This document shows positions 26,083 through 45,099 of a stretch of DNA of 49,937 bases, piece by piece. The position numbers were made by a program, and so were the translations under genes. The first letter of the stretch is position 1; each line of letters begins with the position of its first letter. Origin of the DNA: Thermodesulfovibrionales bacterium (GTDB lineage: Bacteria; Nitrospirota; Thermodesulfovibrionia; Thermodesulfovibrionales; SM23-35); contig JAVHLL010000002.1 in the NCBI GenBank assembly GCA_031082155.1, positions 1 to 49,937 on the forward strand, read 5' to 3'. The notes under the pieces were generated by a model, which did not search any database, was not told the DNA's origin, and saw only the letters and a program-made list of their open reading frames with translations.

Positions 26083-29000
26083 TTATGCTTTTCCGGCTTT
26101 TTTAGCCGCTATTTTTGTAACGTTTGCCATAAACGCCTTGGACTCGGGTATCATGGTGTTCGGATCTCCGACCGTAGGCGTCAGCAGGTTGGCACTGTCA
26201 CCGCCGTCCTTGGGGTGGAGCCATCCAAAATGATAGGGAAGCCCTATCAGATGAACTGTTTGACCTGCTATGACAAAAGGTTTCAGCCGGAGCGTAACGA
26301 TTGCTACTGCTTCCAGTTTTCCACGGGAAGTCTCAACCAGAACTTTATCTCCGTTTTCAATCCCCCTTAATTTCGCAAGCTCCTGACTAATCTCACAGAA
26401 TACCTGTGGCTCGGCTTCAACCAGCCACGGAAGCCAGCGTGTGAGAACGCCTGTCTGCCAGTGCTCGGTCACTCTGTACGTAGTGCAAACAAAGGGATAC
26501 TTGGGATCACAGGTTGCAAAAGTATCAGCCCCGCCTTCAAAGATTTTAATAGCCGGATTTATTCGCTGGTTGGACATAATGTTCTTCTCAATAGGGCATT
26601 CGAGCGGCTCATAATGTTCGGGGAAAGGACCGTCTTTAAGCCCGGGTCCAAAGAGGGAAGCAACTCCATCAGGCTTCATAATAAACGGATAGACCCCTTC
26701 TGTTCCCATAGGAGGTGCCGGACCGTCAGGGATATCGCCGACCCACTTCTTGTTCTCGGCGTCCCATTTGAGCAACGCTCTGTTGGGATTTCTCGGTTTT
26801 CCCTCAAGGTCGACTGATGCGCGGTTGTAGATAATCCTCCGGTTCACAGGCCATGTCCATGACCATTGGGGGTACAGACCGAGTCCTGTGGGGTCGTCCT
26901 TTTTCCTCCGGGCAGCCATATTGCCGGCCTCTGTGTAGCTTGCAGAATAAATCCAGTTACCGCTTGAAGTCCTCCCGTCATCGAGAAGGAATACAAAACT
27001 CGGCACCAGGGTTCCCTTTTTATATGCTTTTTTGTCTACAGGATGTTCAGCAATATCCTCAAGGAAATACCCGTTAATCTCTTTCGCAACCTTATGGATA
27101 TCAAATTTACCGTCTGTTTCATAGTCCCATTTTAGATTCAGGATAGGATCAGGCAATGCTCCTTTTTCCTTTTTATAGAGCGCCTGAACTTTCTTGAAAA
27201 GATCGTATATGATCTCTCCATCGGGCAATGCATCTCCCGGAGGGTTGGTACATTTCCAGCGCCACTGCATCCAGCGGCCACTGTTGCTGATGCTGCCTTC
27301 TTTTTCAAGGAAGGCTGCACATGGCAGCTGGAAAACCTCGGTCTTGATCGTCTTGGGATCCATTCCCGGTCCCTTCCAGAAAGAGCCAGTCTCATTGTCG
27401 AATACATTGACGTTCACCATCCAGTCGAGTTTTGCCATGGCCTGGCGGACTTTTCCGGCATTGGCACTCGAGCAGGCAGGATTCATTCCCCAGGCAAAGA
27501 ACCCGGTAAACTTACCTTTGTACATTTCATCAAAAAGGTTCAGCCAGGAAGCATCCTGTGTTGGTTCAAGCTTTGGAAGCCATGCGTATCCAAAATCATT
27601 TTCTTTTGTAGCCTTTTCACCATAATATGATTTGAAGAGACTCGCCACATATTTTGGTCTGTTTTTCCACCAGTTCACGCTTCTCGGATCTTTTGAAGCA
27701 GGTGTAGTCTTATTGTAATCTGCAAGAGTAGCCCATTGTGCACGGGGAGTCGGCAAGTACCCGGGGATAATATGATAGAGGAGCGCCTGATCAGTTGAAC
27801 CCTGGACATTTGATTCACCGCGAAGTGCGTTCACTCCGCCACCGGCGATACCCATGTTACCCAATAATGATTGAATTATCGACATAGCGCGGATATTCTG
27901 GACGCCGACCGTGTGCTGGGTCCATCCCATCGCATAGAGCTCAGTGCCGGCCTTGTCAGGTTTTCCGGTTGAGCCATAGACTTTATACACCTTTTCTAGG
28001 TCTTCCTGAGGTGTTCCGGTTATCGCCGTGACTTTTTCGAGAGTATATCGTGAATAATGTTTCTTGAGAAGCTGGAAGACGCAACGCTCGTCCTGCAACG
28101 TCATGTCTCTTTTCGGGATTCCGTTATCATCTTTGACAAGCGCCCAGGTGGAAGCGTCATATGACCTCTTGGTAGGGTCATACCCTGAAAAAAGCCCGTC
28201 GTCGAAACCGTATTTAGGGTTCACGATAAACGAAGCATTTGTATAGTTTTTCACATAGAATTCATCATACAGATTGTTGTCGATGATATACTTGATCATC
28301 CCGCCGAGAAAGGCGATATCGGTTCCTGAACGGAGCCTTACAAAAATATCTGCCTTTGTAGAGGTACGGGTGAAACGGGGATCTACGTGGATAAATATAG
28401 ACCCCTTCTCTTTGGCAGCCTGAATCCATTTGAAAGAGACAGGGTGGTTTTCTGCCACGTTACTGCCCATATTGAGAATGACATCTGCATTTCTGAAATC
28501 AATGTAATGGTTTGTCATTGCGCCGCGACCGAACGACTCTGCCAGAGCCGCTACAGTGGCGCTGTGTCATATACGGGCCTGGTGCTCTATCCAGACGAGA
28601 CCGAGTGATCGGAGCATCTTTGAATAAAGCCAGCATTCCTCATTATCCATTGCAGCACTGCCGACAGAAGCAATTGCTTCCGTCCTGTTCACTATCTTGC
28701 CGTCTTTATTCTTTTCGACAAAACTTTTGTCCCTGTTTTTCTTGATATTCGCTGCGATCTTGCCGAGCGCCCATTCCCAGCTCACTTCCTTCCATTGCGT
28801 GCTGTTCGGGGCACGGTAGCGGACTTTTTTCAAACGGTTGTCATTTACCGCTATCTGGTAAGATGACCCCCCTTTAGGACAAAGTGCGCCCTCACTGATA
28901 GGATGATCGGGATCACCCTCTGCATTGATAACTTTTCCTTTTTTGTCGGTTGCTACCAGAATGCCGCAGCCAACGGAACAATAACAACAGATTGTCGGTG

Positions 29001-29139
29001 TTTCCTTTGCACCCTTGATCCGGAGTTCAGAGGCATAGACTTGTGCCGGGGTGAGATCAAATCCAAGTTGACTCAGGGTCACACCGGCAGCCGTTGCTCC
29101 TGATACTTTCAAAAAGTCTCTTCGTGTCAAAACAGCCAT
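26083..29139 (-). CDS. fdnG: Selenocysteine formate dehydrogenase catalytic subunit (Tat-exported)
   Basis: A 1018-residue molybdenum/tungsten bis-MGD enzyme oxidising formate to CO2. The gene looks split by TGA at 28567-28569, but the frame continues; the context I-(TGA)-H-S-A-T-V-A matches the Sec-His position of known enzymes (RVUHGP in E. coli), so TGA encodes Sec191. A twin-arginine signal (TRRDFLKVSG) starts the protein, followed by [4Fe-4S] ligands CCYCSVGCG and CPKG (about 50-95). After Sec come FGRGAMTNHYID and the long cofactor-binding domains. The product is therefore periplasmic. Automatic callers would report two genes (190 and 811 residues). The genome must contain SelA, SelB, selC and SelD elsewhere. 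Confidence 0.95.
28534..28550 (-). promoter_or_regulatory. Candidate SECIS hairpin of fdnG
   Basis: On the minus strand a 7-bp stem, CGGCTCT with AGAGTCG (one G-U), closes a 3-base loop beginning 17 nt after the TGA. The distance fits bacterial SECIS elements read by SelB; the exact fold is not verified. Confidence 0.55.
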
Positions 29140-43212: not shown

Positions 43213-43259
43213 CTGTCTTTATCAGATTGGGAGAACATAGAAAGAAAGGAGGTGAGTGT

Positions 43260-43469
43260 ATGGATAAAAAGGATTTAAAAAAGATCCTTGCAGGTATCAG
43301 CGTCGCCGGTCTCCTGACAGGAGCAAGCATAGGATGTACACCTCAGCAGCCGCAGCAGCCAGCTCCTCCCGGCAAAGAGATACAAAAGGAAGCCCCGGCA
43401 CAAACTCAGGAACCTCAGTTACCAGCAAAAGAGGCTCCTGCTCCGAGCAGTTGAACCGGGAAAAAATAG
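43260..43469 (+). CDS. sbtA: SbtA-like selenocysteine RiPP precursor (TGA as Sec)
   Basis: A 69-residue peptide. It starts at the ATG at 43260 behind AAGGAGGTGA. The N-terminus MDKKDLKKILAGISVAGLL is a basic leader with a hydrophobic stretch and then GC; a Pro/Gln/Ala/Glu-rich linker follows. An in-frame TGA (43452-43454) is followed by codons for Thr-Gly-Lys-Lys and a TAG, giving C-terminus S-S-U-T-G-K-K. The hairpin at 43466-43485 carries a GU in its apical loop at the distance expected for SECIS. From memory, thio(seleno)oxazole (SbtA) precursors have this leader and a C-terminal C/U-T-G core. The radical SAM maturase gene follows immediately. A conventional reading would stop at 64 residues. 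Confidence 0.75.
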
Positions 43470-43485
43470 TGCAAGTTTGCACTAT
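43466..43485 (+). promoter_or_regulatory. Candidate SECIS element of the sbtA-like gene
   Basis: ATAGTGC pairs with GCACTAT around the loop AAGTTT. In E. coli fdhF the SECIS apical part is TGC-AGGTCT-GCA; here it is TGC-AAGTTT-GCA, with the SelB-contacting GU in the same loop position, at 21-22 nt after the TGA against 20-21 in fdhF. The element overlaps the TAG stop. Confidence 0.7.
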
Positions 43486-43500
43486 GCTACCAAGAATTCC

Positions 43501-45099
43501 ATGAGAACATTCCAGGCTGAAGAACATACCGAACCCTATACGGCATGCCGTTCGATTGCCGGTCCTGAATTGTGGGCCAGATTGAGTAGCGACCGGAAGT
43601 TGTCATATGATTCTGAACCACTGATAGGAGACCTCATTCGGGCGGGTGGACAGGGAATGCCAAAGTTCCTCCCTGATCTCGCCCGCCTTGAATACACCAT
43701 TGAAGATGTCCGCAGGAGCGAAGTCCGCATTCTGGAAGTCACCGCGGAAATCTGTCTGAATCCAACGGTAAGGTTGCTGGACCTCTCCTGGAAAAACCTT
43801 CTTCCTCTCCTTACGCAGGACAGAACAGAGGTGCATGCTGATCCGGTGCCTGGCAGCGAGCTCGTGCTTGTCTGGAATGATCCCGCGAGGCAAAGAGTGA
43901 AATACCGTGTAGCATCACAGAATGATCTGCTGGCGCTCAAGATAACGGACGAGCATATAAATCCTGAAAGTGCTGCAAAGGAAGGGAACGTGACGGTTGG
44001 CATGATTGATAGTATTATCGATGAGGCTGTTCACGAGGGGATTCTCCTGTCTCCGCCTTCTCAACTCAATCGTGATCAGTCTATTTTTCCTCTGAATGAT
44101 TATGTGGACAAGAGTTTTCTTTCTTCACACAGTTTTACTCTCCAGTGGCATATCACACAAGCCTGTGACCTCCACTGCCGTCATTGCTATGACCGTAGCT
44201 CCCGCTCGCCGATGAGTCTAGAACAGGGGATACGAATACTCGATGATGTCCGCATGTTCTGCAGGAACAGGCATGTTATAAAAGCGGTAAGCTTCACCGG
44301 CGGGAATCCTTTCCTGTACCCACATTTTGCTGAACTCTACCGTGCAGCGTCAGAGAGGGGATTCAGCATCGGTATCCTCGGCAATCCCACTGGACGAGAA
44401 AAGATTGAGAGCCTGATTGCGATACAGAAACCGACACATTTCCAGGTAAGCCTTGAAGGTCTTCAGGCGCAGAATGACTTCATTCGCGGAGAGGGGCATT
44501 TCGATCGGGTCATGGAATTTCTCAAAGTACTCAGGGAACTGAATATATTTTCGATGGTGATGCTGACCCTCACAAAAAACAATATGAAAGAGGTTATACC
44601 GCTTGCAGAAATACTGAATGAGCACGCAGACAGATTCCACTTTAACAGGCTTTCGATGGTCGGTGAAGGGGCAAGCCTCATGCTCCCAGAGAAGGAAAAA
44701 TATATTGCGTTTCTTGATTCCTATGAAAAGGCAGTTCAGAAATACCCGGTCCTTGGTTTGAAAGACAATATGCTCAGTGTGCTTTCCTATAAAAAGGGGC
44801 TTGAACCATTCGGGGGATGCACCACATTTGGCTGCGGAGCTGCATTTAATTTTCTCGCAGTGCTTTCAGACGGTGAGGTGCATGCCTGCAGAAAGTTCCC
44901 GTCGCCAATAGGAAATATATTCCGTCAGAGCATCTCTGATATTTACGATTCCCCTCAGGCACAACGGTATCGCGAAGGATGCAGGGCATGCCGCACCTGC
45001 AAACTCCATGCGGTATGCGGAGGTTGTCTCGCCGTAGCACACAGCTTAGGACAGGATATTTATGAGGAAAAGGACCCTTTCTGTTTCCTCAATGAGTAA
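43501..45099 (+). CDS. sbtM: SbtM-like radical SAM/SPASM peptide maturase
   Basis: A 532-residue enzyme. The radical SAM cluster motif is C222-D-L-H-C226-R-H-C229 and the fold continues with FTGGNPFLYPHF and FQVSLEGLQ. The C-terminal SPASM-type region has cysteines around GCTTFGCGAAFN, VHACRKF and CRACRTCKLHAVCGGC for auxiliary iron-sulfur clusters. An N-terminal domain (about 1-200) precedes the radical SAM part, as in peptide-modifying maturases. It starts at ATG 43501; a TTG at 43477 would fall inside the SECIS hairpin. It lies 31 bp after the precursor and presumably modifies its selenocysteine or preceding residues; the chemistry is not established by sequence. Confidence 0.85.
   Translation: MRTFQAEEHTEPYTACRSIAGPELWARLSSDRKLSYDSEPLIGDLIRAGGQGMPKFLPDLARLEYTIEDVRRSEVRILEVTAEICLNPTVRLLDLSWKNLLPLLTQDRTEVHADPVPGSELVLVWNDPARQRVKYRVASQNDLLALKITDEHINPESAAKEGNVTVGMIDSIIDEAVHEGILLSPPSQLNRDQSIFPLNDYVDKSFLSSHSFTLQWHITQACDLHCRHCYDRSSRSPMSLEQGIRILDDVRMFCRNRHVIKAVSFTGGNPFLYPHFAELYRAASERGFSIGILGNPTGREKIESLIAIQKPTHFQVSLEGLQAQNDFIRGEGHFDRVMEFLKVLRELNIFSMVMLTLTKNNMKEVIPLAEILNEHADRFHFNRLSMVGEGASLMLPEKEKYIAFLDSYEKAVQKYPVLGLKDNMLSVLSYKKGLEPFGGCTTFGCGAAFNFLAVLSDGEVHACRKFPSPIGNIFRQSISDIYDSPQAQRYREGCRACRTCKLHAVCGGCLAVAHSLGQDIYEEKDPFCFLNE

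Follow-up and report, generated by a model that had tools for sequence, protein, structure and literature searches.

Does the small gene that begins at position 43260 end at the UGA that closes its apparent reading frame, or does its functional end lie behind that codon? The DNA that raises the question (hereafter, the window) spans positions 1 to 49,937 of contig C35 in the 2.65 Mb draft genome of a Thermodesulfovibrionales bacterium (genome code G000). The initial annotation took the gene for a precursor of the SbtA type, that is, of a thio(seleno)oxazole-bearing, ribosomally synthesized and post-translationally modified peptide (RiPP), in which the UGA would encode selenocysteine (Sec). The comparisons described below indicate that the UGA is read through, likely as Sec, and point to a second role for the leader of the encoded peptide.

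Direct reading of the forward strand gives an ATG at 43260-43262, an in-frame TGA at 43452-43454 and, after the codons ACC GGG AAA AAA (Thr-Gly-Lys-Lys), a TAG at 43467-43469, in agreement with the annotated end and tail. The gene (43260..43469) is preceded by a ribosome binding site, AAGGAGGT, at 43246..43253. Its read-through product of 69 residues, MDKKDLKKILAGISVAGLLTGASIGCTPQQPQQPAPPGKEIQKEAPAQTQEPQLPAKEAPAPSSUTGKK, consists of a leader (residues 1-26; 43260..43337) that starts with charged residues and runs through a hydrophobic segment to a lipobox-like A-S-I-G-C26, a linker rich in Pro, Gln, Ala and Glu (residues 27-62; 43338..43445), and the core S-S-U-T-G-K-K (43446..43466). The hairpin described next, the relatives and the decoding genes of the genome suggest that residue 65, encoded by the UGA, is likely Sec and possibly Cys.

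Behind the UGA lies a hairpin, ATAGTGCA-AGTT-TGCACTAT (43466..43485, forward strand), with a perfect 8 bp stem, the 5' arm of which overlaps the TAG. Its loop, AGUU, carries a G-U at 43475-43476, that is, 21-22 nt after the TGA, as initially annotated. The model of the bacterial Sec insertion sequence (bSECIS) printed in PMC13188914 (Fig. 2 legend) specifies a loop of 3-9 nt with G in the first two positions, a stem of 4-16 bp, a spacing of 16-37 nt and a minimum free energy of -7.5 or lower; the hairpin falls within all these limits (loop AGUU, 8 bp, spacing 19 nt, -8.7 kcal/mol), as do 14 of 5000 shuffles. When the 60 nt downstream of the TGA are dinucleotide-shuffled 20,000 times, an equally strong stem with its centre at 18-26 nt arises 31 times, and one with GT in the loop as well twice. 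The trinucleotide TGA occurs 2034 times in the window, counting both strands and UGA65 itself; such a stem stands behind 13 of these occurrences, with GT in the loop as well in 4 cases. The stem is more than chance, and the hairpin is notable by its position and loop rather than by its energy alone.

The family to which the gene belongs is known. Residues 1-26 match TIGR04081 (SbtA family thio(seleno)oxazole RiPP precursor) at 48.3 bits against a cut-off of 30.5, which bears out the proposed SbtA-type leader, and the next gene, annotated as an adjacent radical SAM maturase, is indeed SbtM (TIGR04082; 717.3 bits, obtained on a longer open reading frame [ORF] that starts with TTG at 43477, against a cut-off of 350). 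From its ATG, the SbtM gene occupies 43501..45099 of the forward strand, with radical SAM (PF04055) and SPASM (PF13186) domains found by domain search at 44152..45003. The N-terminal domain is predicted to resemble RiPP recognition elements (RRE), and the RRE-like, presumably leader-binding part covers residues 82-185 (43744..44055). The model of SbtM appears to share its fold with the RiPP-modifying radical SAM/SPASM enzymes CteB (which we take to be the enzyme of 5WGG/5WHY), SuiB and SkfB, at an identity of just 16-22%; unlike SbtM, these enzymes form thioether or C-C bonds. Because SbtA and SbtM have already been published and curated, the family membership is not new, and the gene adds one member.

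Within the phylum, TIGR04081 scores above its cut-off in 23 of 395 genomes, and SbtM is found at E 1e-70 in 27 of them, with one match each. The SbtM matches in G006 (C104; L141), G016 (C52; L139) and G025 (C60; L140) begin at profile position 195-198 and perhaps lack the RRE-like N-terminal part; these three genomes are not among the TIGR04081-positive ones. A single scan of named genome contigs yielded 62 SbtM loci, most of them from Desulfobacteraceae, Desulfobulbaceae and other deltaproteobacteria and several from Nitrospirae, 56 of which contain an SbtA-type gene. Searching the SbtA profile with the read-through translation, as the initial annotation suggested, recovers the leader and is silent about the tail (48.3 bits with the read-through, 48.5 without), because the 27 positions of the profile cover the leader only; the tail was therefore judged by the relatives.

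For this purpose, 119 leader matches were reduced to 85 distinct genes (53 from the 62 SbtM loci and 32 from other genomes) by dropping 6 matches below 18.5 bits and then merging those with identical first 150 nt. The closest relative, L054, comes from a Thermodesulfovibrionales metagenome assembly, and its SbtM is 89-90% identical to that of the window. This locus retains AAGGAGGT, the TGA, T-G-K-K and the TAG, and none of the 16 stem bases has changed; over the stretch that spans core and hairpin, it differs from the window by two base changes, one synonymous (Gly67, GGG to GGA) and the other at a loop base beside the kept GU. Across the 85 genes, we defined a core TGA as one with S, G or A before U, with S, G, T, Q, N, A, C or R before that, and at residue 125 or lower; a hairpin was counted when a stem of at least 5 bp lay at the right distance, and TGAs with fewer than 50 nt of sequence behind them were excluded from the hairpin counts. 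So defined, 0-6 core TGAs occur per gene (exactly one in 5 of the 85), usually within the motif (S/G/T)(S/G/A)-U-(S/T/G/A)-G; in 37 of the 85 read-through products, U is followed by a short tail whose last or penultimate residue is Lys (e.g., SGTKK, TGKK, AGSKK). Compared with the cores of these genes, SSUTGKK fits the family pattern, in which a Gly comes after the Cys or Sec of the core, close to the C-terminus.

The hairpin is present after 177 of 211 core TGAs (shuffle mean 13.6, maximum 21, in 20 rounds), and the printed bSECIS limits of PMC13188914 are satisfied at 139 of the 211, compared with 8-13 in five rounds of shuffling. Non-core TGAs are followed by a hairpin in 3 of 28 cases, and Cys-coded core sites, of which there are 17 in 9 genes, in 1 case. 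Given the difference between the TGA sites and the Cys-coded sites, the hairpin goes with the UGA codon rather than with the motif in the peptide. The 85 genes are related, and these conservation counts are therefore not independent events. Relatives stopping at the TGA with neither tail nor hairpin, which the initial annotation named as the observation that would speak against it, are the opposite of what is seen in L054 and in the 85 genes. Several SbtA-type genes have all or nearly all of their core residues encoded as Cys (L113 from 3703; L101 from 4680; L115 from 5527).

The genome encodes machinery for Sec incorporation: SelA (one match), SelB (two matches above the cut-off) and a tRNA-Sec with a UCA anticodon. 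Two further genes appear to use it. The SelD gene (L049 10901-11944; profile search and reading) has an in-frame UGA at residue 16 (AAGUASKIS) with a strong palindrome behind it, and an FdnG-type formate dehydrogenase alpha subunit (window 26083-29139, reverse strand; TIGR01553, 1502 bits), with an in-frame UGA at 28569 and a hairpin, is the predicted second selenoprotein gene of the window. SelB was detected in 25 of the 27 SbtM genomes and in 152 of the 368 others (Fisher p 1.4e-7, uncorrected for kinship). Second tRNA-Sec-like genes with a UCA anticodon were found in two SbtM genomes (G396:C279:1785-1876, L242; G015:C130:47997-48087, L243).

Some observations weigh against the reading of UGA65 as Sec. 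SelB was not found in the SbtM genomes G142 and G172, most SbtM genomes being draft assemblies; of 28 SbtM genomes, again mostly drafts (the 27 plus G396, the SbtA stretch of which is identical to that of L054), 23 have a confirmed UCA tRNA-Sec; and plain folding energy over the 55 nt at 43446-43500 is weak, with a z of -1.37 and 19 of 200 shuffles folding as well. The last point, along with the location of the hairpin in the gap before sbtM, would suit a true stop at the TGA followed by a palindrome that is either fortuitous or regulatory. Such a stop is nevertheless very improbable in the face of the conserved tail and hairpin, the similar behavior of the internal TGAs of relatives, and the near absence of the hairpin from Cys-coded core sites. 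Read-through would also be compatible with Cys at position 65, inserted always or in selenium shortage by a second set of factors, so that the product would be a thiooxazole and not a selenooxazole. A tRNA-Sec-like gene that ARAGORN calls a tRNA-Cys with a GCA anticodon (C35:118549-118639, minus strand; by eye, its 3' end reads C-T-CCA, that is, U73 if CCA is encoded) lies about 40 nt upstream of the second SelB gene, identified by profile search on the same strand (C35:116653-118506). Vargas-Rodriguez reportedly described in 2018 that tRNAs of the selC* group can put Cys at UGA. Pairs of selC* tRNA-Cys and selB* have been described, with selC* also known from Nitrospirae (PMC7609411), and the arrangement in this genome, a GCA-anticodon tRNA-Sec-like gene with a second SelB directly downstream, is of the same kind. 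Furthermore, SbtM is described as removing four hydrogens from Cys and Sec substrates alike, the Cys product being a thiooxazole (PMC11002830), so that the product could also exist in a Cys form in this genome, and core sites are encoded as Cys in some relatives.

The distribution of the pair argues against such a role. GCA tRNAs were identified in only 3 of the 28 SbtM genomes (G000, G396, G172; second matches in G142, G251 and G109 were not assigned by ARAGORN, and one further G251 match is a tRNA-Ser), as against 4 of 5 added genomes with two SelB and no SbtM, and of the 6 genomes with two SelB, 1 contains SbtM (p 0.35). The pair is thus not tied to SbtM, and any role at U65 is putative; a link between selB* and SbtM was rejected for lack of association across genomes. 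With a canonical UCA tRNA-Sec present in the genome as well, Cys insertion appears unlikely, and Sec remains the likely reading of UGA65. Of the 69-residue peptide with Sec65 originally proposed, the read-through accordingly stands, with tail and hairpin kept in relatives, whereas the identity of residue 65 is likely Sec, with Cys possible on account of the GCA tRNA and the second SelB. A division of labor between the two SelB proteins was also considered, prompted by the observation that internal core hairpins mostly have pentaloops (AGGUA, AGGUG, CGGGA) and terminal ones often other loops; it was rejected, given that G113 (L018), with a single SelB match, holds two unlike loops. The GCA tRNA and the second SelB (C35:116653-118639; L049 6600-8640, minus strand) are divergent from SelD and from two genes that, by eye, resemble HgdB/HgdC.

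The leader of SbtA is probably also an export signal, a point absent from the initial annotation. Under the PROSITE PS00013 rule, the lipobox Cys lies at position 15-35 after an uncharged stretch, and Lys or Arg occurs within the first seven residues. The window leader fits this rule at C26; at -3, where a stricter version has Leu, Val or Ile, it has Ser. The PS00013-type pattern is present in 43 of the 85 leaders (in 35 of which the Cys is residue 29), compared with a mean of 8.1 and a maximum of 15 when residues 17-42 are shuffled, and in 28 of the 53 SbtA genes of the SbtM loci, compared with 8 of 510 other ORFs from these loci, for which the most upstream start was taken, so that the control may be understated. 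Another 20 of the 85 leaders contain A-x-A of the signal peptidase I type, and 22 fit neither pattern.

A second SbtA gene of the same genome (G000:C52:102759-103157; L002 1501-1899; L051) adds to this picture. It combines an SbtA leader, the core stretch AQAA-U-AGSKG with a hairpin after the UGA, and a c-type cytochrome of the monohaem kind (match to PF21342 at 29.4 bits against a cut-off of 27), and the same-genus genome G396 (L174) retains leader, UGA, hairpin and cytochrome. The cytochrome domain is found in 97 of 390 phylum genomes, and in 26 of 29 loci inspected by eye, an ordinary signal peptide directly precedes it (in the other three, L184, L187 and L198, another CxxCH had been picked). 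In the two genomes of this genus that were examined, the SbtA leader and UGA core occupy the place of that signal peptide, and because haem c is attached outside the cytoplasm, a leader in this position should export the protein. No SbtM was seen on the stretch read around the fusion gene (L051), and with one SbtM match in the genome, the same enzyme would have to serve both SbtA genes. No statement of the SbtA leader as a lipoprotein signal, or of an SbtA-cytochrome, was found among the literature matches listed, which did not cover the primary SbtA paper, so that both may already be known.

Taken together, these observations suggest the following scenario. SelB and the Sec-tRNA(UCA) would decode UGA65 with the aid of the hairpin at 43466-43485, as the comparative evidence indicates. 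SbtM would then bind the leader via its RRE-like domain and remove four hydrogens at S64-U65 to form a selenooxazole, a step that we infer because this chemistry has been published for another SbtA/SbtM pair. Residues 1-26 would serve as a lipoprotein signal, with the signal peptidase II (SPase II) pathway lipidating the peptide and cleaving it before C26, to yield a Pro/Gln-rich tether bearing S-S-U*-T-G-K-K with the ring at its tip. We consider Sec read-through, selenooxazole formation by SbtM and lipid-anchored export, taken jointly, to be probable. The tip, finally, might be a soft-metal ligand outside the cytoplasm, in the manner of the copper-binding thiooxazole products of MNIO enzymes, except that a radical SAM enzyme would make it and that it would contain selenium; this last step, suggested by the parallels with the MNIO products, is tentative.

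The parallels with known systems delimit what is distinctive here. With the SbtA/SbtM thio(seleno)oxazole RiPPs (Lewis et al. 2021, as described in PMC11002830 and PMC13188914), the window gene shares the leader family, the adjacent SbtM, the UGA/Cys core with Gly and the hairpin after the UGA; it differs in the single UGA at the very C-terminus, the lipobox-like C26 and the existence of a second SbtA leader on a cytochrome c. The MNIO-made thiooxazole peptides bind copper and have been named captophorins, and the modified SbtM substrate is listed with the 5-thiooxazole compounds (PMC12668002). According to PMC12452194, Sec-pathway (secretory) signal peptides are found on most MNIO precursors; lipoproteins are predicted for about 16% of the members of one bufferin group, and a fusion to cytochrome c is noted as well. 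Captophorins (bufferins, oxazolins) thus resemble SbtA in the thiooxazole-type core, in the signal peptide that replaces a classical leader, in the repeated short Cys/Gly cores of some members and in the reported cytochrome c fusion, but are made by an MNIO and a partner, as opposed to a radical SAM enzyme acting on a core that likely contains selenocysteine (PMC12668002, PMC12452194). This genome has no match to the MNIO family (PF05114) at E 1e-10, and SbtA would therefore at most work like a captophorin and is not a member of that group. In a different draw of 355 phylum genomes, PF05114 was found in 108, mostly at less than 70 bits and thus possibly not in true MNIOs, and the family codes of these genomes differ from those of the SbtM genomes. 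Mutual exclusion of MNIO and SbtM was rejected as an explanation: no family code holds both, but aerobic versus anaerobic lineages would produce the same pattern. DAG-RiPPs such as lipo-NedA are also built on an SPase II lipoprotein signal; the lipidation of lipo-NedA has been shown, whereas that of SbtA is predicted (PMC12636315). In the available part of that paper, a term search found no mention of SbtA, SbtM or selenium.

Two other functions deserve consideration. The product could be a secreted antimicrobial, in which case the leader would be of the usual cytoplasmic RiPP kind, a protease would remove it, and the peptide would carry no lipid; a 2026 review indeed gives TIGR04081 the name Selenobacteriocin (PMC13188914). 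The gene neighborhoods offer little that would fit: among the 62 SbtM loci, in which ORFs of at least 90 aa were clustered (not annotated singly) and the top 14 clusters inspected, SbtM itself was recovered in 59, and the next cluster, which looks like sensor proteins, in 8. Besides SbtM, no neighbor family occurs in more than 8 of the 62, and no conserved immunity, protease or exporter gene is visible. The lipobox and A-x-A signals far above controls, and the presence of the same leader and core on a cytochrome c, likewise argue against a bacteriocin, which we regard as unlikely. Alternatively, the peptide might be exported and lipid-anchored as proposed, with the selenium tip performing redox chemistry (with peroxide, or electron transfer to cytochromes) in place of metal binding, an idea to which the monohaem cytochrome fused to the second SbtA lends some appeal. 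That fusion is not decisive between redox and metal, because a bufferin-cytochrome c fusion has been reported among the copper-binding RiPPs (PMC12452194). A selenooxazole would, moreover, be less obviously redox-active than a free selenol, and the 62 loci show no conserved partner besides SbtM, so that we also view a redox function with doubt, though it has somewhat more to commend it than an antimicrobial one. Immediately upstream of the window precursor is a sulfotransferase-family gene (PF03567; 42349-43071), with no link seen.

We therefore put forward, as a speculative generalization that could well prove wrong, that SbtA peptides may be selenium-tipped lipoproteins and not bacteriocins. 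Their leader would be an export and lipidation signal that is also read by SbtM, and their selenooxazoles would be ligands that anaerobes hold out on a tether anchored in the membrane. Such peptides would be to radical SAM enzymes what the copper-binding thiooxazole lipopeptides are to MNIOs; within this genus, leader and core would also be carried by a c-type cytochrome, giving a selenooxazole-cytochrome. For annotation, the lesson is that the functional end of the gene probably sits behind a UGA, where standard annotation may lose it, as the initial annotation suggested. If the leader is an export signal, the site of action would be the cell envelope, where metal binding is directly testable. 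If the proposal as a whole is true, ligands of one kind would be reached by two chemistries, that of MNIO and that of radical SAM enzymes, and there would be a cytochrome bearing a selenooxazole.
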